Source: Sneathiella limimaris (GTDB taxonomy: Bacteria; Pseudomonadota; Alphaproteobacteria; Sneathiellales; Sneathiellaceae). Taken from it: a DNA stretch of 64,000 bases. The notes below the pieces were generated by a model, which was not told the origin of the DNA, did no database searches, and saw nothing but the letters and a program-made list of their open reading frames with translations. Position 1 is the first letter of the stretch, and each line of letters starts with the position of its first letter. This document shows positions 39,431 through 50,094 of the stretch, piece by piece. The stretch is from assembly GCF_012932565.1 (NCBI RefSeq), contig NZ_JABBYJ010000001.1:1550001-1614000 (forward strand), written 5' to 3'. A program made the translations under genes and the position numbers.

Positions 39431-40393
39431 ATGACACGCGTATCCACATTCCACCAAAGCCAGACGCTGCTCAGCTACATGCAGGGTGCCCAGGCGCGGG
39501 TTGACAAAGCCCAGTTTCATGTGACCACAGGTCACGTGGCGGAATTCTACAAGGATATCTATCAGGATACCTCGACATTGACAGGGTCGAAATCACTACT
39601 GTCGCGCCTTGAACAGCATAAAGAGAATAACGGCGTCGTGTTGTCAGAGTTGGCAGCCTATGATCAGGCGCTTGGCGGGATGGAAAGTGCTGCAACTGAC
39701 CTGAAAGAGGCCGTTATGGGCGCGATCAATGCGTCCTCCGCCCTTGGTCTGGAAGCCACCATCGAGGGTGTATTTGATGCAGTTGTCGGGTTTATGAACA
39801 GTCAGAATACGGAAGGCTACTTGTTCGCAGGGAGTAAGAAAGATACGTCTCCCATCAACATTTCCGATATGAACGATCTGCTGACAGCGCTCGAGCCTCC
39901 AACCGATGTTTTTGACAACAATACATTGAAACGCACCGTTCGCGTGGATGAAAACCGGACCCTGGAAATCGGCTTGGTGGCGGATGAGGTCGGGCTCGAC
40001 ATCATGACGGCGGTTCAGCGTCTTGTCATGTGGCAGAACGGAACTCTTCCAACAACTGCGCCCGTTCCAACCGGGCCAGCAGGACCTGTAACCACACCGC
40101 TTCGCGATGAGGATCAGGCTTTCCTGACGGGCGAGATCGCCAATTTGGAGAATCTGGTGCGGGATCTGGGTGAGCTCCGCGGTGAAAACGGTCTCAACCA
40201 GAAAGTGATGGAACAGACCGTTGAGGCGATCGATGTGCAGATCACACAAACCAAAATCTTCATCAGCAATATTGAGGATGTGGATGCCGCCGAAGCGATC
40301 ACGAAGTTGAACGAGGCGAACTTTGCGCTTGAGGCGTCTTATAACGTCCTCTCCCAGCTCAATCGGACAACGCTTCTGAATTATCTCAGCTAG
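39431..40393 (+). CDS. flgL: Flagellar hook-associated protein 3 FlgL
   Basis: A 320-residue flagellin-like protein with an N-terminal coiled helix (VDKAQFHVTTGHVAEFYKDI), an LSRLEQHKENN-like central helix, GYLFAGSKKDTSPI in the family position and a C-terminal helix NEANFALEASYNVLSQLNRTTLLNYLS. It is the junction protein between FlgK and the filament. It is translated from the flgK transcript and followed by a strong terminator. Confidence 0.9.
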   Translation: MTRVSTFHQSQTLLSYMQGAQARVDKAQFHVTTGHVAEFYKDIYQDTSTLTGSKSLLSRLEQHKENNGVVLSELAAYDQALGGMESAATDLKEAVMGAINASSALGLEATIEGVFDAVVGFMNSQNTEGYLFAGSKKDTSPINISDMNDLLTALEPPTDVFDNNTLKRTVRVDENRTLEIGLVADEVGLDIMTAVQRLVMWQNGTLPTTAPVPTGPAGPVTTPLRDEDQAFLTGEIANLENLVRDLGELRGENGLNQKVMEQTVEAIDVQITQTKIFISNIEDVDAAEAITKLNEANFALEASYNVLSQLNRTTLLNYLS

Positions 40394-40423
40394 TACGCCT
40401 TAAAAAAGGAACATCTCCAGAGA

Positions 40424-40458
40424 AAGGCATCTCGTCCCAAGGGACGGATGCCTTTTTT
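40424..40458 (+). terminator. Terminator after flgL
   Basis: Long stem AAGGCATC(T)CGTCCC / GGGACG-GATGCCTT followed by a run of T. It ends the flgK-flgL transcript 31 bases past the stop. Confidence 0.85.
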
Positions 40459-40519
40459 GCATGGCTATAGTGTGACGGTTATACTTGCATCCGCTAAAAA
40501 CCAGCCTATATTGCGCGCC

Positions 40520-41650
40520 ATGAATTCATTAGGTTTTGATACAGCACCGGAAGATACCCGCGTTGTCGTCGCCATGTCAGGCGGCGTGGACAGCTCGGTT
40601 ACGGCTGCGCTTTTGAAAGATCAGGGCTATGACGTGGTCGGGATCACGCTGCAGCTTTATGATCATGGCGTTGCGGTTCAGAAAAAAGGCGCCTGTTGTG
40701 CCGGGCAGGATATTCACGATGCCCGCCGGGTCGCTGATGCCATTGGCATTCCCCATTATGTGCTGGATTATGAAAGCCGCTTTCAAGACAGTGTGATGGA
40801 AGAATTTGCCGACAGTTATCTGCGCGGCGAAACCCCTGTCCCGTGCGTGCGCTGTAATCAAACCGTGAAATTCCGCGATTTGCTGGAAACCTCTCAGGAT
40901 CTAGGCGCCGTTGCCCTGGCGACCGGGCATTATATCCGCCGCGAAGGCGGCCTTAGCGGCGCTCGTCTATATCGCGGTGCAAATGCCATCAAGGATCAGA
41001 GCTATTTCCTTTTTGCGACGACGCAGGAGCAGGCGGATTATCTGCGGTTTCCTCTTGGCGGTCTAACCAAGGAAGAAACCCGGGCGCTGGCAGAAAAATA
41101 CAATCTCGCCGTTGCGGCCAAGCCTGAAAGTCAGGATATCTGCTTCGTTCCCAATGGCAATTATGCCAGCGTGATTGAGCGTATTCGCCCAGGCGCCGGT
41201 CGGGAAGGGGACATTGTCGATCTTTCCGGTAAGGTTCTGGGAAGTCACAATGGCATCATCAACTACACCATTGGGCAGCGCCGTGGCCTTGGCATTGCGG
41301 TTGGCGATCCGCTGTATGTGGTGCGGCTGGACCCGGAAGGAAACCGGGTCGTGGTCGGACCGCGCGAAGCCCTGCTGGTCTCCAAGCTCAGCCTTCGGGA
41401 AATGAACTGGATTGGTGATGAGCCGCTGTCTGATCAGGGCACAGAGGTCATGATCAAGGTGCGCTCTACGCAGGATCCGTTCCCGGCAACCGTTTATGGT
41501 GCGGCCAATGGCTGGGCCGAGGTTCACCTGACAGAGCCCGAAGCCGGTGTTTCTGCTGGGCAGGCCTGTGTCATGTATGACGGGGATCGCCTTTTGGGCG
41601 GTGGCTGGATCGCTGGAACAGAAGCACCGCTTACCCTCGAGGTTGCTTAA
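40520..41650 (+). CDS. mnmA: tRNA-specific 2-thiouridylase MnmA
   Basis: A 376-residue enzyme. The PP-loop ATP pyrophosphatase motif is [16 protein letters not shown], the catalytic Cys pair lies in [10 protein letters not shown] and [12 protein letters not shown], and the C-terminal barrel has [12 protein letters not shown]. It thiolates U34 of Lys, Glu and Gln tRNAs using sulfur from the Tus/IscS relay. ATG 40520 is chosen because homology begins about 15 residues later. A longer frame to 40448 runs back into the flgL terminator. It sits directly before a tRNA gene. Confidence 0.95.
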
Positions 41651-41752
41651 CGACTTGCCGCCGATGACCTCTTTTCAGGTCTTCAAGATCCGCAACATCC
41701 GGGCCGTTCACGCCTGCGCTAATCCTGCAGCTAATTTTGTTGATTTCTTCGC

Positions 41753-41781
41753 TTGACAGCCTCAGCAAAAGACCCTAAAAA
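41753..41781 (+). promoter_or_regulatory. Predicted promoter of tRNA-Met
   Basis: A perfect -35 box TTGACA, a 17-base spacer and TAAAAA as -10, about 40 bases before the tRNA. Confidence 0.6.
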
Positions 41782-41821
41782 CCGGGCTCCAGACGGCCTG
41801 ATCCACGGCCGTTCTTCGTGT

Positions 41822-41898
41822 GGCGGAGTAGCTCAGCTGGTTAGAGCAGCGGAATCATAATCCGCGTGTCGGGGGTTCAAGTCCCTCCTCCGCTACCA
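41822..41898 (+). tRNA. tRNA-Met (anticodon CAT), elongator type
   Basis: A 77-base tRNA with encoded CCA. The acceptor GGCGGAG pairs with CTCCGCT (G1-U72 wobble), the anticodon loop contains CAT at about 41855-41857, and the T loop is TTCAAGT. The paired 1-72 position excludes an initiator tRNA. A lysidine-modified tRNA-Ile is possible but the sequence looks like elongator Met. The 3' half from 41850 is repeated at 52372, marking it as the attachment site of the adjacent element. Confidence 0.95.
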
Positions 41899-41899
41899 A
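41850..41899 (+). repeat. attL: 50-bp direct repeat within tRNA-Met
   Basis: The stretch from the base before the anticodon stem through CCA plus one base (41850-41899) is identical to 52372-52421. The tRNA stays intact at this end, as expected when an element integrates into a tRNA 3' half and brings its own copy of it. Confidence 0.9.
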
Positions 41900-41921
41900 A
41901 ATTCCTTTAAGTAAGAATACT

Positions 41922-43276
41922 TTTGGTTTTGGTTATACTTTTCCAGAGTGCTATAACAAATCCAAATGGGGGTCTTGGTAATGCCAGTTGCGGTTGGCTC
42001 AACTTTTCCAGAGTGCTATAACCTTTTGCGTTGAGGCAAAAGCCGCGCCGAGGTTTCGGTTGGCTCAACTTTTCCAGAGTGCTATAACTACTAGCAAGGT
42101 GTATTGAGGGAGGCCCCAGTTGCGGTTGGCTCAACTTTTCCAGAGTGCTATAACGAGGGCGACAAAGGCGTCGGAAATCACCGCGTTGCGGTTGGCTCAA
42201 CTTTTCCAGAGTGCTATAACAACCGGTGGGCGGCCACCCTTGGCAAATTGGTTGCGGTTGGCTCAACTTTTCCAGAGTGCTATAACTCACTTCGCTTTAT
42301 GGCGGAGCGGTTTCAAGTTGCGGTTGGCTCAACTTATCCAGAGTGCTATAACGTCTTCCGTTCGGTGCCTTCAGCTCAATGAGTTGCGGTTGGCTCAACT
42401 TTTCCAGAGTGCTATAACTTGCACTATTCACTAGACCCTGACCAACTGGTTGCGGTTGGCTCAACTTTTCCAGAGTGCTATAACTGCCGCTTCCAGAACC
42501 ATTAGCTTGTCTTCGTTGCGGTTGGCTCAACTTTTCCAGAGTGCTATAACGGCAAGCTGGTAAAGGTTCGGACCTTATATGTTGCGGTTGGCTCAACTTT
42601 TCCAGAGTGCTATAACTCCAGCCAGTCAGCACCACACTATATATTAGTTGCGGTTGGCTCAACTTTTCCAGAGTGCTATAACGATCGAGGAGCACAAGAA
42701 ACAAGCGCGGATGTTGCGGTTGGCTCAACTTTTCCAGAGTGCTATAACCTGACAGGTAATTACCATTCAGGGTATTGAGTTGCGGTTGGCTCAACTTTTC
42801 CAGAGTGCTATAACCGCTTCGTCTTGTACCCATAAACCAACCGTGTTGCGGTTGGCTCAACTTTTCCAGAGTGCTATAACTATTGAAGCTTGGGAGCTTG
42901 GTTTCCATCTGTTGCGGTTGGCTCAACTTTTCCAGAGTGCTATAACTCAAATTTATCTGTTAATTCAACTTTCATAGTTGCGGTTGGCTCAACTTTTCCA
43001 GAGTGCTATAACTCGGGGAGCCGGTCGGATCATCCTGGGTTAGTTGCGGTTGGCTCAACTTTTCCAGAGTGCTATAACTATTGAAGCTTGGGAGCTTGGT
43101 TTCCATCTGTTGCGGTTGGCTCAACTTTTCCAGAGTGCTATAACAAGTCTGCCCATGCATCCCCCGAAGCCACTGTTGCGGTTGGCTCAACTTTTCCAGA
43201 GTGCTATAACGGGGTCGCAATTGACTATGTTGCAGGATATGTTGCGGTTGGCTCAACTTTTCCAGAGTGCTATAAC
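41922..43276 (+). CRISPR. Type II-C CRISPR array, 21 repeats and 20 spacers
   Basis: The 36-base repeat starts GTTGCGGTTGGCTCAAC and ends CAGAGTGCTATAAC. Copies begin at 41922 (degenerate 5' half), 41987, 42053 (GTTT variant), then every 66 bases from 42119 to 43241 (one T-to-A variant at 42317). Spacers are 30 bases, the first 29. Spacers at 42881-42910 and 43079-43108 are identical. Orientation on the plus strand follows from the tracrRNA anti-repeat. The degenerate repeat sits at the tRNA side, so the youngest spacers are probably at the cas2 side. Each repeat carries a promoter-like TTGGCT-17-TATAAC. Confidence 0.97.
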
Positions 43277-43349
43277 TGATCGCAATATAAGGTATTGAAA
43301 TAACGAGATTTATTGGGTTTTGAAATGACAAAAAACATATCGTTATTTT
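43277..43349. other. Probable leader between CRISPR array and cas2
   Basis: A 73-base AT-rich stretch (AATATAAGG, AAATAACGAGATTTATTGGG) between the last perfect repeat and the end of cas2. Because the degenerate repeat is at the other end, this side is where new spacers are expected to enter, as in other II-C loci. Confidence 0.4.
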
Positions 43350-43697
43350 TTAAAATAGAATGAACTGTTCCGGGTTTTTAAGGGATAATCTGCGCTGATT
43401 CCCTCTAAAACACACGATGTTCTCATATTGTTTGTCCGTAAATTGTAAGATGTCTACTTTTCCCATTGGTGGCATGGCGCGTTCGATTTTTCGAATAATT
43501 GCCTGCACGGCATCTTTGCCAGAGGTGTGTCGCACATATACAGAATATTGAGCCATCTCAAAGGCGTTATCAAGCAGGAAGTTGCGGAATTTGGTATAGT
43601 GATACCGTTCTTTCTTCGTTGCGGTCGGCAGATCGAATAACACCATCACCCACATGAATTTATATCCGCTCAGTTCTGTGTATCTCTGACGTGCCAT
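43350..43697 (-). CDS. cas2: CRISPR-associated endonuclease Cas2 (type II)
   Basis: A 115-residue Cas2. The ferredoxin-like first strand ends in the conserved Asp (VMVLFDLPTATKKERYHYTK), followed by FLLDNAFEMAQYSVYVRH and a C-terminal strand VDILQFTDKQYENIVCF, typical of subtype II-C Cas2. It forms the Cas1-Cas2 spacer integrase. Its start shares one base with the cas1 stop. An internal Met (MWVMVLFD) could be an alternative start. Confidence 0.95.
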   Translation of the reverse strand: MARQRYTELSGYKFMWVMVLFDLPTATKKERYHYTKFRNFLLDNAFEMAQYSVYVRHTSGKDAVQAIIRKIERAMPPMGKVDILQFTDKQYENIVCFRGNQRRLSLKNPEQFILF

Positions 43698-44617
43698 TAT
43701 ATTGGCTGGCCAAGTGTTAAGGGAATTGGTGGGGCTGGTAATTCCAGCTTCTTTCGATTGCCGAGAAAAACCTGGGCGAGGGACTGGGCCATTCGGTCCA
43801 TGCAGACTTGCATCGGGCTCGCCCCTTCAGCAGCTTGCATATCTATCGTCAGCACCGCTGCGAGTGCCGCTTTATGTTGAGGCGTCAGGGAAAACTCCTG
43901 TCCCTCAATTTGCTCGGAAATTCGTTTGACTCGATCATCAACCCAAGGACGATATGGCTCCATTAGATCATCTGCGAGGCGCAGGGCATCTCCCTTGCTT
44001 TGATGGTGAATTGAGAGGGAAGGGTGAAGGCCTGCCGCCAGCAGGGACCGGGCTGTCGCTGCCCTTAAAATGGTGTACCCATAATTCAGGGCGGTATTGA
44101 TTGCTCCTTGGTGGCTGCTTCGTATAAAATCTTCTCCCATTAGCCGCTTCCAGTATTTTCGGGCTGCCTGCGCTTCCAGATTATCTATATCTCCTGATTT
44201 GACGCGACCAGCCATAGAGGCAATGTCTTCGAATTCTTGGTTGTATAATCTTAGGACTTCGGCCTGATTTTCAATTTTACTCTTGACCAACTGTGCCCAT
44301 AACCGCTTTTGCATCGGTTTGTTTGCAACGGCTTGGGCCTGCATGGTCAGGCCTTGTGTGAAATGACCGCTGACAGGCCAGATCACCGAAGCAGGTGACT
44401 GGTTGGTGTTGCAGATGACAATTGGTACATTGACGTCTGCCAGTCGGGCGCAGATATTGGCTGAAAAAGACGCGCCATGTCCGCGAATGATCAAGGCAGA
44501 CATATCTTCAATGGCAACCTTTCCAACACATTCCCTGCCCATTGCAACTGACAGAAACCCCCGGTCGACAGACAGGTGTGCCCCGTCCGAGGATATTTCG
44601 ACGACACGGTTTTTCAT
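43697..44617 (-). CDS. cas1: CRISPR-associated integrase Cas1 (type II)
   Basis: A 306-residue Cas1 with an N-terminal beta domain (VEISSDGAHLSVDRGFLSV) and a C-terminal helical catalytic domain. Conserved features are ARKYWKRLMGEDF, AINTALNYGYTILRA, GLHPSLSIHHQSKGDALRLADDLMEPYRPWVD with the metal-binding His and Asp. It catalyses spacer integration. Cas1 is intact in length. No csn2 or cas4 lies nearby, which assigns the locus to II-C. Confidence 0.96.
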   Translation of the reverse strand: MKNRVVEISSDGAHLSVDRGFLSVAMGRECVGKVAIEDMSALIIRGHGASFSANICARLADVNVPIVICNTNQSPASVIWPVSGHFTQGLTMQAQAVANKPMQKRLWAQLVKSKIENQAEVLRLYNQEFEDIASMAGRVKSGDIDNLEAQAARKYWKRLMGEDFIRSSHQGAINTALNYGYTILRAATARSLLAAGLHPSLSIHHQSKGDALRLADDLMEPYRPWVDDRVKRISEQIEGQEFSLTPQHKAALAAVLTIDMQAAEGASPMQVCMDRMAQSLAQVFLGNRKKLELPAPPIPLTLGQPI

Positions 44618-44671
44618 CTTTTCCCCTCACTTGTGTAGGAAAAGATATATTAGATTGAGTTAAATTTTTAT

Positions 44672-47600
44672 TTATTCTCTAATTTGATGTGATTTGGAAA
44701 CTCCTGATGGACTAACGGTTAAGAGCACTGCGTTGGCATTTTGTAAAGAGCTAGGGGACTTGAATATGAACTTTAACTCATCATCCTTGTCCCGCACGCG
44801 TGCATCTACATTTGCTTCCATATGCTCTGCTAAAGCAAGAGTACCATCAGTAAATTTCACAACCTGGACAATGATGTCTCGGTTTTCATGATGGATTTTC
44901 AGGTAGTCATTTTTGCGAAGTCGCATCAGCAGCTTCTGACCTTGCTGTCCAACCGGCTTTTGCCACCAGTTTTCATCTTTTCTGGCCAGTTGATAGGCCT
45001 GGAAGGTTGAGATGACTTCGCCCGTCCATTTTCCGGTATTTGTCTTCCAGATGTCGTAGCAGTAATTGCCATCCCCCTTATAAGATTTGTATTCCTTGCC
45101 CTTTGTATCTTTCATTGGAATGACGCGCAGCTTTTCTTCGATACGGATTTTGTATACCGGCGGGCTCATGGCATTCCCTGCTGCGAGGAGGGCTTCCTTG
45201 AAGCTGTTTCCAGTCAATCCGGCCGTTTCGGACATCAGATGTTCGCGAATGTCGGGGTCACGAATTTTCTCCAGATCCTCCTGCTTCTTAAAGCTGTCGC
45301 TATCCAATGGTTTGCGGGTGACAACTGTGCGAACGCCTTTCTTATCTGGCTGTCCTTCTTCGCCTTTTGGAATGCCATAGGCGGTGTCGTTATGCATGGC
45401 GGCCTGAATGCCATGGTCCGGCTGATGGCTGACGATTATGTCGCGAACTGACTGTTCCACATCCTCGCGAAACCCCTCCCAAGGCTCTGCAATACCTGCC
45501 ATTAGCTTTTCACTGAAATTGTCTTCATTCTTTTTGGCCTGTGTTGCGATATGCTGAACCAGTCTCTGATCCGTACATCCGGCCACAATCGCATCAATCG
45601 CATGATGGCGGTGATCGTTGCGGTTCTTTCTCTGGGCCTCTGCCTCCGGCTCGTTATGTCCTCTCAAAACCGCGTTTAATCCCCACTCATGTCGTAGATC
45701 GGCCGTCAGACGGCCTGGAATGACGCGGACACGGTTTTTGGCCCCTTTGTACCCCTGACCCCCGTACAGGGCTTCTAGGTAGGATTTGGTGAGCCTGGAG
45801 ATATATTGTGTGTCTGTCAGTTGCCGGGCAAGAAAGCCCCCTTCAAATTCCGTGTATCGCTTTAATGCGTCCGGGCTAAATCGCCAGCGTTTGTTATAGG
45901 GGAGTTCTGTCGCCCGATCCGCTATTGCTTGCCAGTCATATCCGTTGGGAGAGTGGCCGAAAGCGTCATAGGGTGCTTTCTTGCCCTTGTCCCGGTTGGC
46001 TTTTCGCGTAGCAAGTGTCTTGTTCCCATAACTATCATCAAAAGTGATGGAAAACGGAAGAATATGCTCTACCTCGACCCGATCAGAGAACAAATTCGTT
46101 AAGCTGATGGGCTCTCCTGAGAAGGGACAGCATTTGTCAAGGGCCTTCAGGTCTTCATAAAGGCGCAATCGCATGCGGTTCTCGTAGCTGTCTTGTACCC
46201 CAAGTTCATCTAGGATTTCTCTTCGTTTATTATTCGCGTCCTGATTTTCCCTTTGCAGCTTTTCCAGCTCGCTTTTGCGTTTTGCAGATAGAGGAAGATC
46301 CCGCGCCAATTCAACCACGATTTCCTCTGGCGTGCCAAAGCGTCTCATCAGGTCATTGACCACCGCTCTGATTTGATTGAGAGCGACATGAACAGTTGGA
46401 TTTGCAACTTTTCCATAGCGTTTTTCGTCAGGATCATTTGGATCTCCTGAGCCAAAGGCAACTGATCTCTCAAGAATGTAACCGTAATAGGGAAGCCCAT
46501 CGTCAAAGATCTCGCCGGTTGCAAATTGGCTGTGGCTGCCGAGCCCGGCGCGTTCTACCGCCTCAGAATAGACGATCACGTCATTCTCAAGTGCAGGGAC
46601 TATTTTTTCGAGAGCTTTCAGGCTAAGTCTTCCATGGCCATCGGGTAGGGGACAGTTGGATACTTGATAGGCTTGTTCCGGACTGAGTTCCCAAGTGTTA
46701 CAAAGCCATTTGATCAGGGCTTCCTCATTCTCTTCGTGAAGAAGTTGGTAAACGATCTGGTGTTGCTGATCAGCGGTTAGTTCCAGCCATGCTAGTCCCC
46801 AACGGTCCGGTTGCATAAGTTTGGCAGCTGTTTCGTCTCCCTGGAGCTCTTGACGCTTATCAGACTCCAAATTGAATAAGACATCAGCTTCTAAACCAAG
46901 CAGCTTCTTTAGCTGCTTAAATGTGACTTTCCCAGTCTTACTTGTTGGAGTAATCAGTCGATTAACAACCTTGTTGCGCTGCTCGATGGAAAGAGCGTAT
47001 TCAGCTTTTCCCGCATCTGAAACTCTCAATGCGTTTACTTCCTGAAGGATCCGTGCCCGTTGATACACAGGATAGGCCTTGGCGGCTCGTTCTTCTTCCG
47101 GTAGGAGGGTGCATCGTCCTACTGGTTGGGCTTTGAGCGGGTGTTGCCATTCTATTGTGTCTGCCAGTCGGGCGTAGGCTTCATCTGTTAGGACTTCTGG
47201 ATGGTATTTCTTTTGAGCTTCCCAGATGAGATGAAACTCTTCCATGATCAGTGCGCGAGTTGGGTAATAATCATACTGCCATTTTGATCCGGATCCGGAT
47301 TTTCTGACACGGGCGAGGGGTTGTGGTTTACGCTCACCCTTTGGCGCCGTTTTGTTGAAGCAAGCAGCTTCGTATCGGGAGTGCCCAAACAGCTCGCCCA
47401 ATGTGCGGGCATCATTCTCCTCCAATGCAACAGATGTTCGCTGTGTTGCCTCAAAGACCTTGCCGCTTTCTGAATCCGCACGGTCTGTTTTTCGGTTAGA
47501 CTTGAAACCTCTCCGTTGGTGGAGGTGGAAAATCGCGCGCCCCAACTGGAATAGGCTGATTTCTTCGTTGAGGGCTCGGTAGCGCAGAATCCATGGATCA

Positions 47601-47929
47601 GTATCCTCTAAAAGAGTGTGTTTTCCACCTTCAAGTTTTTTGCGCTCTGAAGGATCCGTCGGCATGAGTTTGAATTCAGTGAGTTCGCGCATGAGTCGCT
47701 CGGTTCGGCGTTTGGCTCGATCTCTATTTTTTCTTGCGCTGCGGGGTTCGCGCCGTTTCGCAGCGTTGGATTGTTTGTCTTTGGGATTGCGTCCATCTGA
47801 GAAAATTCGAACACCACTGGCAACAATACCAATGGGTGTAGTCTTGGCATGATTTAGCTCTAATGCTGCCCAGCCGAGTGAATTGGTTCCCAAATCAATT
47901 CCTAATCTCCATGGTGTCCGTGTTTGCAT
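44672..47929 (-). CDS. cas9: CRISPR-associated nuclease Cas9 (type II-C)
   Basis: A 1085-residue compact Cas9. The RuvC-I Asp is residue 12 (RLGIDLGTNSLGWAALE), the Arg-rich bridge helix lies near 60-85 (RREPRSARKNRDRAKRRTER), RuvC-II has EEIVVELARDLP, and the HNH domain has EVEHILPFS with His near 622 and NKTLATRKANRDKG. RuvC-III HHAIDAIV has Asp near 779. The C-terminal PAM-interacting region follows. The Asp that usually precedes the HNH His is Glu. All other catalytic residues are present, so it is predicted active. ATG 47929 follows AGGGGGAAAC. tracrRNA is divergent upstream. Confidence 0.97.
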   Translation of the reverse strand: MQTRTPWRLGIDLGTNSLGWAALELNHAKTTPIGIVASGVRIFSDGRNPKDKQSNAAKRREPRSARKNRDRAKRRTERLMRELTEFKLMPTDPSERKKLEGGKHTLLEDTDPWILRYRALNEEISLFQLGRAIFHLHQRRGFKSNRKTDRADSESGKVFEATQRTSVALEENDARTLGELFGHSRYEAACFNKTAPKGERKPQPLARVRKSGSGSKWQYDYYPTRALIMEEFHLIWEAQKKYHPEVLTDEAYARLADTIEWQHPLKAQPVGRCTLLPEEERAAKAYPVYQRARILQEVNALRVSDAGKAEYALSIEQRNKVVNRLITPTSKTGKVTFKQLKKLLGLEADVLFNLESDKRQELQGDETAAKLMQPDRWGLAWLELTADQQHQIVYQLLHEENEEALIKWLCNTWELSPEQAYQVSNCPLPDGHGRLSLKALEKIVPALENDVIVYSEAVERAGLGSHSQFATGEIFDDGLPYYGYILERSVAFGSGDPNDPDEKRYGKVANPTVHVALNQIRAVVNDLMRRFGTPEEIVVELARDLPLSAKRKSELEKLQRENQDANNKRREILDELGVQDSYENRMRLRLYEDLKALDKCCPFSGEPISLTNLFSDRVEVEHILPFSITFDDSYGNKTLATRKANRDKGKKAPYDAFGHSPNGYDWQAIADRATELPYNKRWRFSPDALKRYTEFEGGFLARQLTDTQYISRLTKSYLEALYGGQGYKGAKNRVRVIPGRLTADLRHEWGLNAVLRGHNEPEAEAQRKNRNDHRHHAIDAIVAGCTDQRLVQHIATQAKKNEDNFSEKLMAGIAEPWEGFREDVEQSVRDIIVSHQPDHGIQAAMHNDTAYGIPKGEEGQPDKKGVRTVVTRKPLDSDSFKKQEDLEKIRDPDIREHLMSETAGLTGNSFKEALLAAGNAMSPPVYKIRIEEKLRVIPMKDTKGKEYKSYKGDGNYCYDIWKTNTGKWTGEVISTFQAYQLARKDENWWQKPVGQQGQKLLMRLRKNDYLKIHHENRDIIVQVVKFTDGTLALAEHMEANVDARVRDKDDELKFIFKSPSSLQNANAVLLTVSPSGVSKSHQIRE

Positions 47930-47954
47930 GTTTCCCCCTTTAAACGCATTATGG

Positions 47955-47983
47955 TTGCATTAATTTCTTTCGTCTAGTAAGAT
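47955..47983 (+). promoter_or_regulatory. Predicted tracrRNA promoter
   Basis: TTGCAT, 17 bases, TAAGAT on the plus strand in the cas9 upstream gap. Transcription would start near 47990, just before the anti-repeat. Confidence 0.5.
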
Positions 47984-47989
47984 CAACGA

Positions 47990-48100
47990 ACATTTTGTAG
48001 CACTCTGGAAAAGTTGGGCTTTCCGTTAACAAGGATTTAGTCCACAAAATGTAACTAATAGGGCGGTTTATGCTTTAAGCGTAAGCCGTTCTATTTGCTT
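47990..48100 (+). ncRNA. tracrRNA
   Basis: The anti-repeat at 47998-48030 pairs with nearly the full 36-base repeat: a continuous upper stem from GCTCAAC to the GTGCTA end (with G-U pairs), a UU/UU internal loop, then a lower stem with one bulge. It leads directly into AAGGATTTAGTCC (48031-48043), which resembles the nexus AAGGCTAGTCC of known tracrRNAs. A strong terminal hairpin follows at 48057-48095 (AATAG...CGGTTTATGC / GCGTAAGCCG...CTATT). The geometry fixes both the tracrRNA and the crRNA on the plus strand. Exact ends are estimates. Confidence 0.85.
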
Positions 48101-48205
48101 CTATGCTCTTAATTTGCTTCTTCTATGCGCCACTTTCTCAACTGAGATTTTGTATATTCCCTAAATCTAGCGGCATGGGATGTCTATATTTGCCGACTAG
48201 GACTT

Positions 48206-48415
48206 CTAACGTGCGAGTAGAAAAATCAGCCTTCCCACCATAAAAGAAGATAAGAACTTAATGAACTCAAGTAGGTATCGCCAGTCATCGCCTGGAATGG
48301 CTGTAATCATGAGCAACATCAAGCCCAATAAGACGATGATTAGGGAGAAAACCACTATTTCAAATGGATGAGCTCGAAATGAGCAAATGAGAAAATCTAG
48401 TATTCGAAATTGCAT
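48206..48415 (-). CDS. Small membrane protein of the element
   Basis: A 69-residue protein with two predicted transmembrane helices: ~18-40 (FEIVVFSLIIVLLGLMLLM) and ~50-67. A strong GGAGGTCAGATCA ribosome site precedes ATG 48415, which makes it a credible gene despite its size. It lies between the tracrRNA and the recombinase-like gene inside the element. No function is recognised. Small membrane proteins beside CRISPR loci are sometimes accessory effectors, but nothing in the sequence shows that here. Confidence 0.55.
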   Translation of the reverse strand: MQFRILDFLICSFRAHPFEIVVFSLIIVLLGLMLLMITAIPGDDWRYLLEFIKFLSSFMVGRLIFLLAR

Positions 48416-48420
48416 TGATC

Positions 48421-48802
48421 TGACCTCCAGTTCATTGTCGAGATTATAGAGGAAAGATTAAAAAAATAAACAAAAACAATAACTTAAGTCACTCGTGACT
48501 TACTTTGGTTTCTATCTATAAGGTTTGAAAAATAATCAAAGGTCCTTGGGCTGTGACCAAAAGATATTGAGATGTAATCCTTATATCTAGAGTGTCGAAA
48601 TATATGGTGGACTGGTACTGTAAGGATCCGATTGGTGTCTCTTAAAACTCTGGAGCCATGCCCCTAAAGCATCCCTGTTTATTCCTAGGACTTCGCTTTG
48701 ATAGCGGACGCATGTGAGGAGCATGCAAATGAAAAAAGCCGAAATAGCCGTGACAAAGTGAGACATTTCGAGACATTTTTACATTTCGTAAGCTTTTAGT
48801 TC
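48421..48802. other. Gap between small membrane protein and recombinase-like gene
   Basis: About 380 AT-rich bases without a convincing gene. It contains short imperfect repeats of GAGACATTTC/ACATTTCG near 48760-48787 and a few stop-rich stretches. I see no promoter or RNA structure with confidence. Confidence 0.4.
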
Positions 48803-49516
48803 TCAATTCATATGGTCGATTTCTAGCTTTTTAAGTGTGTGAGCTAAATTGCCTCGCGACCAGACCCTACCATTTTGGGTTCTTATTCCCCGTGCATTTA
48901 GTTCATCAGCGATTGTTTGTATCGACGGTTTTTTAGCCTTTTTTAGTTCAGCGATAACCGCCTCAATTTTTGGTTTTAAAATGCTTCGAGTATATCTGGC
49001 CCAACTGGCTGCAACTGATGATGCTTTGGTCGTGTCGTTTTCATGTGTGAGGTGGCTTTGCTTCCCCAGCCATCTTCTGTAACCTTCTTCCATTTTGATT
49101 CTGTAATTTAGTGGGGTAAAAATTGTTTCAGGTGGTATCCTTATTGGTATCCCATAAAGTGTATCTATTATTTCAACCTTATCGCTAAACAATACGCCCA
49201 ACACATTTTCAATTTCATTTTCATCACTTTTCATAAGCCACAGAAGCGAGAAAATATCATGTATCAGCAATAAGCTGTTACTTTTCTCAGCTTCACATAG
49301 AGCTTCTTTGAACTCTTGATCATTAAAAAAATTATGCGTTTTACCAGAAGAGTATTTGAAATAGGACCTCTGTGCAGGCTGCAAATCGTGCTTTAACCTA
49401 TAGTATTGGTGCGTTATATTCTGAAATTTAGTTCCAGGATACATTATTGGCTGGTTCCAAAACTGCCTTTCAGGGCGTCTCCTGGCGTAGAAAAATGATA
49501 TTGCTTTGTTTGACAC
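48803..49516 (-). CDS. Recombinase-like protein of the element
   Basis: A 237-residue protein. The C-terminal 60 residues (KPSIQTIADELNARGIRTQN ... WSRGNLAHTLKKL) match the helix-turn-helix-like segment found in the Recombinase domain of large serine recombinases. The N-terminal ~170 residues show no resolvase catalytic fold: no YxRxSxxxQ motif and no clear active-site Ser. It may be an accessory DNA-binding factor, a degenerate recombinase or an excision factor. GTG start with GGAAG about 10 bases upstream. AT-rich, in the element's foreign-looking half. Confidence 0.5.
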   Translation of the reverse strand: MSNKAISFFYARRRPERQFWNQPIMYPGTKFQNITHQYYRLKHDLQPAQRSYFKYSSGKTHNFFNDQEFKEALCEAEKSNSLLLIHDIFSLLWLMKSDENEIENVLGVLFSDKVEIIDTLYGIPIRIPPETIFTPLNYRIKMEEGYRRWLGKQSHLTHENDTTKASSVAASWARYTRSILKPKIEAVIAELKKAKKPSIQTIADELNARGIRTQNGRVWSRGNLAHTLKKLEIDHMN

Positions 49517-49608
49517 TGGGGCTGACTTCCGGCGAATGCCTTACTTGTGAAGATAGCTAGCAATCTAAATTATTTCTTCTCAAGTTGCCCAGCGTTTATT
49601 GAAAATAT

Positions 49609-50094
49609 TCAAATTACGTGGTTGATTGTATAAATGCGCTTTGCCTCTCGATTTAAGCTTTGTGAGCATGAAATCAGAGAATTATCAGTGCAAAGAATGG
49701 ATTGCGTCTTTTTAGTTTCCTTTGCGCAATACTGAGACCAGCCCGCAATTCCATTTTTCCCTTGAAACCCAAGATCCCAGTTTGGTTTATCCGTATGAGT
49801 GGCTTTCCGGTCATAGAAAAACTCCGCAGTAAACCCTTTCAGTTTCCTCTTGTCGCCACTAATTTTTTGAAGACCAGTTCGAATTTCCTCTTCTGAGAGG
49901 GATCCTCCATGTAATGCACCATGTATATGCTTTCTGGAAGTCCCCTTATTGAGTTCGATGACAAAGAAATAAGGAACTTTGGGAAACTGTCTTCTAAACC
50001 TCTGGGCAATGTAGTGCTTAATCGATGTTTGACTGTCCATGCGCCGGTGGATGTCCTGAGTGAAGTGTACTGTGAACGTGACAGGGCTTCCCAT
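49609..50094 (-). CDS. HUH Rep-like endonuclease, possibly N-terminally broken
   Basis: A 161-residue protein. KHIHGALHGG (HxH, near residue 56) looks like the metal-binding HUH motif, and GWSQYCAKET carries a Tyr with a following Lys, as in rolling-circle Rep nucleases. The alternating strand VPYFFVIELNKG precedes the HUH motif in the expected order. Upstream of ATG 50094 the frame stays open to 50235 with protein-like sequence (RLWFYAAALNSMG) but no usable start or ribosome site, so the gene may be truncated or frameshifted. It could support circular-form replication of the element. Confidence 0.5.
   Translation of the reverse strand: MGSPVTFTVHFTQDIHRRMDSQTSIKHYIAQRFRRQFPKVPYFFVIELNKGTSRKHIHGALHGGSLSEEEIRTGLQKISGDKRKLKGFTAEFFYDRKATHTDKPNWDLGFQGKNGIAGWSQYCAKETKKTQSILCTDNSLISCSQSLNREAKRIYTINHVI

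Follow-up and report, generated by a model that had tools for sequence, protein, structure and literature searches.

Probable extended −10 promoters at the ends of type II-C CRISPR repeats in Sneathiella limimaris and related arrays

Results

Organization of the CRISPR-Cas9 locus

The window, which is the whole 64,000-nt stretch of Sneathiella limimaris DNA analysed here (contig NZ_JABBYJ010000001.1), contains a type II-C CRISPR-Cas9 locus in which the array runs in the direction opposite to that of the cas genes. The array (41922..43276, plus strand, with the crRNA sense taken from the tracrRNA) has 21 repeats of 36 nt and 20 spacers of 30 nt, the first spacer having 29 nt. The cas genes, all on the minus strand, are cas9 (44672..47929, 1085 amino acids; TIGR01865, 4.5e-207), a cas1 of type II (NMENI; 43697..44617; TIGR03639, 7.4e-69) and cas2 (43350..43697; TIGR01573, 2.3e-16). 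The array lies beyond cas2, from which it is separated by the leader (43277..43349, plus strand). The tracrRNA gene is located upstream of cas9 (47992..48100, plus strand, ends approximate), and includes the anti-repeat at 47995-48019, GTTAACAAG at 48025-48033 and a strong hairpin at about 48064-48088. On the other side of the array a tRNA-Met gene (41822..41898, plus strand) is aimed into it, ending 23 nt before the first repeat, R1, and is preceded by a promoter-like TTGACA-17-TAAAAA (41753-41781, plus strand) that was read by eye.

The assignment to type II-C is based on the gene order cas9-cas1-cas2 with no fourth cas gene between the array and the tracrRNA, on the presence of a tracrRNA whose anti-repeat matches the repeat of the array, and on the orientation of the array opposite to the cas operon with the leader at the cas2 side, the old end being recognized by its mutated repeat. 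A search of positions 40000-50000 with Rfam returned the tRNA and two matches below the gathering score, and no CRISPR or tracrRNA family.

One spacer is present twice in identical form (42881-42910 and 43079-43108), with two other spacers in between, which reflects either a duplication or repeated uptake. The CRISPR-Cas9 system looks patchy in the genus, as a Cas9 match was found in only 3 of 23 same-genus genomes (G001-G023), one with 70% identity and one a short fragment, several of these genomes being incomplete.

Sets of related arrays

Two sets of relatives were used. Set 1 was obtained from a Cas9-alignment scan, which gave 80 loci; 57 of these plus the window provided 61 arrays with 36-nt repeats (56 distinct repeats), while L050, with a repeat of only 26 nt, and 22 loci without an array were left out. 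For set 2, 31 genomes of the phylum and three relatives contributed 34 stretches in total, in which 28 arrays were found. The 31 genomes were taken from 39 over the cut-off, leaving out the window's own genome and seven with fragments; among the stretches, six had no array and L146 had only 18 nt. Both sets combined comprise 81 distinct repeats. These are not all independent samples: two arrays come from a single locus in three cases in set 1 and in one case in set 2, there are repeats common to more than one array, and the set-2 genomes may belong to species already present in set 1. The two sets have no identical combination of repeat and oldest repeat in common.

A tRNA gene within 600 nt of the far end was observed in 8 of 70 arrays, in all eight cases aimed into the array, and may perhaps reflect an insertion habit of these loci.

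Strand of the crRNAs

Apart from the array itself, the sequence of the window that best matches the repeat is the anti-repeat at 47995-48019. Downstream of it on the plus strand are GTTAACAAGG and the strong hairpin, a tail that is common to the window and to the relative with a 70% identical Cas9. The pairing of repeat and tracrRNA in the window covers 33 of 36 nt, with −53.1 kcal/mol. In a two-sided survey of the relatives with a wider mask, an anti-repeat was found in 50 of 58 loci in set 1 and in 25 of 27 in set 2. In set 1 the tail motif was present on the side that fits crRNAs opposite to the cas genes in 46 of the 50 loci and on the other side in none, and a terminator hairpin in 45 and 4 loci, respectively. 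For the 25 loci of set 2, in which the tail sequences are often different, the corresponding values were 9 versus 1 for the motif and 20 versus 2 for the terminator. A separate pairing survey used 52 loci, after six of 58 without the tail motif were set aside, and 51 of them have the tracrRNA gene on the strand opposite to cas9. The side of the tail motif and of the terminator indicates that crRNA transcription runs against the direction of the cas operon, in agreement with reports on type II-C (PMC8092290; this and the other articles cited are drawn on in part). We therefore rejected minus-strand crRNAs, since the tracrRNA tail of the window is found on the side expected for plus-strand crRNAs, and the tails of the relatives are on the corresponding side, with the other side serving as control; the plus strand given in the original prediction is the one that the tracrRNA supports.

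A promoter-like element in each repeat

The repeat, GTTGCGGTTGGCTCAACTTTTCCAGAGTGCTATAAC, includes TTGGCT (nt 8-13) and terminates in TGCTATAAC; in repeat 2, for example, these correspond to 41994..41999 and 42014..42022 of the plus strand. The original prediction described TTGGCT and TATAAC (nt 31-36) separated by 17 nt, with TG ahead of the latter, and this arrangement was confirmed: TATAAC together with TG (nt 28-29) is present in 21 of 21 copies, in which the 9-nt end TGCTATAAC is uniform, and TTGGCT in 20, copy 1 having TTGGTT. As an extended −10 element, every copy has the TG and five of the six bases, the last base being C and not T. In 20,000 dinucleotide shuffles of the repeat, with both strands considered, the chance of such a hexamer pair was 0.25%, that of an extended −10 with at least five of six matches 0.84%, and that of both together 0.04%. 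The 15-mer CCAGAGTGCTATAAC occurs 21 times in the genome, every time in the array. A stricter promoter scan requiring T as the last −10 base left the array repeats unflagged, because this base is C here. The last base of a −10 element is strongly important, and C in place of T should weaken the box of the window.

The copies differ by one change each in copies 3 and 7 and by seven in copy 1, and the youngest repeat (43241..43276, plus strand), which adjoins the leader, equals the consensus. That the arms are unchanged in nearly all copies, as originally noted, is correct, but its use as evidence for selection had to be rejected: a new repeat arises as a copy of the adjacent one, so that near-identical copies say little about selection. 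This argument was replaced by a test with the oldest repeat (see below).

Among the 81 distinct repeats, T31 and A32 are present in 79, and together with T36 in 68, nt 33-35 being more variable. TAnnnT was searched in all 31 frames of these repeats and found in 73 cases, 68 of which are at nt 31-36; at the opposite end, on the reverse strand, it was found in 0 of 81. The three positions TA...T are those that count most in a −10 element, and in terms of sequence the pattern at the repeat end is that of such an element. G29 is present in 69 of the repeats and the full TG with TA in 36, whereas a TAnnnC box, as in the window, is a minority form (11 of 81).

In the 52 loci surveyed, the pairing between repeat and tracrRNA spans nt 1 to about 30, and nt 33-36 are paired in only 19-44% of them. 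In the 14 loci with at most one pair at nt 31-36, T31 and A32 are retained in all 14 and T36 in 13, and thus the motif is not explained by tracrRNA pairing. In the window the potential pairing with the anti-repeat extends as far as nt 35, so that at this locus alone pairing could by itself hold the motif.

Pattern of changes in the oldest repeat

In type II-C arrays the oldest repeat is the one farthest from cas2, located before the first spacer. It is part of no crRNA and could thus decay at random if the repeats were not promoters. Arrays close to contig ends were left out, namely 11 of the 61 of set 1 (window included), lying within 74 nt of an end, and two of the 28 of set 2, which gave 50 and 26 usable arrays. 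The oldest repeat is mutated in 45 of these 76, with 200 changes in nt 1-18, 10 in nt 19-27 and 2 in nt 28-36, counts that come from arrays of relatives that are not fully independent and for which no null control (another CRISPR type with a functionless oldest repeat) was found. In set 1 (19 intact, 31 changed) the respective numbers are 136, 9 and 1, while random placement leads to an expected 36.5 changes in nt 28-36 and never gave fewer than 19 in 20,000 trials. In set 2 (12 intact, 14 changed) they are 64, 1 and 1, and a Neisseria-type repeat of this set (L128) shows the same behaviour. The two substitutions within nt 28-36 each replace C by T at nt 33, which makes the box more similar to TATAAT. 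The inner repeats have no such slope, with 15 changes in nt 1-18 and 10 in nt 19-36 in 1110 repeats, after leaving out those with more than six changes, which are mostly mis-steps of the repeat walk. Beyond 30 oldest repeats that are intact, half-remnants were not overrepresented, so the pattern is not made by the threshold.

The extra repeat R1 of the window (41922..41957, plus strand) fits this pattern, with seven changes, at nt 1, 5, 6, 7, 12, 14 and 15, and none after these, nt 16-36 being intact with TGCTATAAC included. The retention of the 3′ part by mutated oldest repeats argues, on the basis of sequence, for the extended −10 element that had been predicted. The protected stretch, approximately nt 19-36, exceeds the length needed for an extended −10, which counts against the promoter reading.

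The oldest-repeat test confirms and sharpens a pattern that has been published since 2025, and is not new. Feussner et al. (2025, PMC12080349) also found the oldest repeat mutated mainly at the 5′ end, the extra repeat of II-C arrays being mostly changed in its first 15 nt, and in the parts of their article considered here the stress is on the lost tracrRNA pairing, whereas we examined the protection of the 3′ part and a leader terminator. Their interpretation is that the 5′ changes avert an extraneous read-through crRNA, and such changes may indeed have been favoured because they prevent a useless crRNA. Taken further, the loss of the 5′ part could be all that was selected, with the 3′ half merely unchanged so far and uninformative on promoters. 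Besides the published interpretation (PMC12080349), the duplex energy in the window agrees with this, as the changes in R1 weaken the tracrRNA duplex from −53.1 to −36.9 kcal/mol. We nevertheless consider this explanation improbable: in L036, L043 and L093 the first 17-19 nt are altered at most positions and the remainder is perfect, whereas neutral decay would hit both halves. Selected 5′ loss is also compatible with the promoter reading, and according to the same article (PMC12080349) the extra repeat may need to retain its promoter. The slope of changes along the oldest repeat is, in our reading, better accounted for by a promoter in its 3′ part.

The C-ending box of the window raises the separate question of whether the array of this lineage is silent, or barely expressed, for want of a sufficiently strong −10 element. 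The minority status of TAnnnC (11 of 81 repeats) and the importance of the last −10 base speak for it, and nine mutated oldest repeats of the C-ending form, in which a count by eye gave no change in nt 28-36, speak against it, because the element still looks selected. A silent array is thus unlikely in our view.

No support for a fixed −35 element

The original prediction included TTGGCT at nt 8-13 as a −35 element. Selection on this hexamer is not supported, and we rejected it, since only 14 of the 81 repeats have four of six matches to TTGACA at these positions and 22 of the 45 mutated oldest repeats are altered there. When any distance of 15-19 nt is allowed, 50 of 81 repeats have a −35 match of four of six, with about 9% expected from base composition; in 27 of the 50 it is supplied by one common TGGACC (nt 9-14), which is paired with the tracrRNA in most loci. 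A −35-like match at 15-19 nt is found in 19 of the 45 mutated oldest repeats, as compared with 25 of their 45 consensus repeats. From these sequences, a weak −35 contribution at another spacing is possible.

Possible transcription from upstream of the array

A different origin of the crRNAs would be one long pre-crRNA transcribed from upstream, for example by read-through from tRNA-Met, with all ends made by RNase III. The tRNA gene is on the same strand as the array, no terminator was found in the 23 nt between them, and the duplex of repeat and tracrRNA is long (−53.1 kcal/mol). At this locus, read-through is possible also alongside promoters in the repeats. A tRNA gene in this position is found in no more than 8 of 70 arrays, the oldest repeat retains its 3′ end in spite of belonging to no crRNA, and a relative cloned without upstream DNA still yields crRNAs (PMC7708072), so that a single pre-crRNA has little probability as the explanation.

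Promoters in the repeats also account better for the conserved 3′ end than recognition of the leader-side end by Cas1-Cas2 or tracrRNA pairing would. The latter, with the promoter look as a by-product, is the least probable of the alternatives: the repeat 3′ end does abut the leader, pairing in the window reaches nt 35 and a TAG is also known near the leader end of II-A repeats, yet the oldest repeat keeps its 3′ end although it does not serve for integration and contributes to no crRNA, and T31, A32 and T36 are kept where pairing is absent.

A putative terminator in the leader

The leader of the window has a weak terminator-like hairpin (dG −8.5; arms at about 43298-43314 and 43332-43348) followed by a T run. 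We analysed 76 leaders, one per distinct 36-nt repeat and with the youngest repeat intact, with a hairpin threshold of dG ≤ −12. A terminator-like hairpin in the crRNA direction was present in 36 of them (for example L022, L024, L043 and L128), whereas 20 rounds of dinucleotide shuffling gave a mean of 5.5 and a maximum of 10. The T run of the 36 starts 32-65 nt past the youngest repeat, in 34 of them at 32-49 nt. In the cas direction a hairpin was found in 12 of the 76 leaders (shuffles: mean 4.3, maximum 8), which is also above the shuffles, so the leader is not strictly unidirectional. Before the oldest repeat, the number was 2 of 63 (shuffles 3.6).

Since all repeats would fire towards cas2, the last one would fire into the leader, where the hairpin would stop the RNA started from the youngest repeat. 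The predicted terminator supports the direction of transcription. The window would be a poor example of it, because its own hairpin is weak. No mention of a leader terminator was found in the literature searched or in the parts of PMC12080349 covered. It may still have been published elsewhere; a terminator shortly after the youngest repeat is perhaps new.

Discussion

Taken together, the sequence comparisons indicate that each repeat is very probably an extended −10 promoter without a fixed −35, which gives every guide RNA its own start. The strand, the element and its conservation can be read from the sequences themselves. In the mechanism that we propose, for which start sites, promoter strength and processing are modelled on related systems, RNA polymerase would start about 5-8 nt into the following spacer, and the transcript would consist of the rest of this spacer (about 23-25 nt) and the next repeat. 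This repeat would pair with the tracrRNA, and a cut by RNase III would produce the 3′ end. All the repeat promoters would face the leader and, beyond it, the cas operon, which converges on the array with its 3′ end. This overall model, in which nt 19-36 or so act as the promoter of each repeat, with starts inside the spacers, tracrRNA pairing and 3′ ends made by RNase III, is one that we hold with high confidence.

A type II-C array of N. meningitidis with promoters in its repeats was reportedly described by Zhang et al. in 2013. The parallel with this organism drawn in the original prediction is supported, as there too each repeat ends in an extended −10 (PMC5052741, PMC7038990), and RNase III is dispensable for interference (PMC5052741). 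The Neisseria-type array L128 likewise has 36-nt repeats, is located downstream of cas9 and has the same oldest-repeat pattern. The repeat sequence of N. meningitidis is different, with TACAAT in place of TATAAC, and the element described here is predicted from sequence. In C. jejuni, which has a minimal II-C array, there is also one −10 box per repeat; transcription starts at nt 5 of each spacer, and the 3′ ends are made by RNase III with the tracrRNA (Dugar et al. 2013, PMC3656092). The repeat end of C. jejuni is GGTAAAAT, and its starts were mapped (PMC3656092), whereas ours are predicted. The original prediction that crRNAs would arise without RNase III was overstated: given the pairing over 33 of 36 nt, RNase III would be expected to generate the 3′ ends, as in C. 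jejuni (PMC3656092), and independence from this enzyme would be limited to the 5′ ends.

Two cloned systems are closer in layout. In Defluviimonas sp. 20V17, four repeats next to the cas genes were cloned and gave crRNAs in E. coli; as in the window, their transcription runs against that of the cas genes, and they have 24-25 nt of spacer and 24 nt of repeat (PMC7708072). The array of Clostridium cellulolyticum is also opposite to the cas genes, with crRNAs of 23-26 plus 24-28 nt, and its extended −10 has been noted (PMC7038990). Both differ from the present case in that expression was from plasmids in E. coli, and in the parts cited the authors leave open or pass over the choice between internal promoters and processing (PMC7708072, PMC7038990). 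The motif is not universal in II-C, as the repeats of F. columnare are described without the usual motif (PMC8092290).

More tentatively, II-C arrays might be series of extended −10 promoters that point towards the 3′ end of their own cas operon, with the leader doubling as a transcription exit. We consider this general picture possible but rather doubtful; if true, spacer insertion and transcription exit would be linked at one spot. If the leader terminator holds, the II-C leader would gain a second, testable role.

A promoter in each repeat is already known for this Cas9 subtype, and the array of S. limimaris is a well-supported further case and no surprise. What the present analysis adds is a comparative footing for this design in alphaproteobacterial Cas9 systems, in which the array direction, the guide length and the element that is kept, an extended −10 with no fixed −35, follow from the sequence. 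For users of such Cas9s, the strand of the guides is indicated, and a few cloned repeats should suffice for expression.
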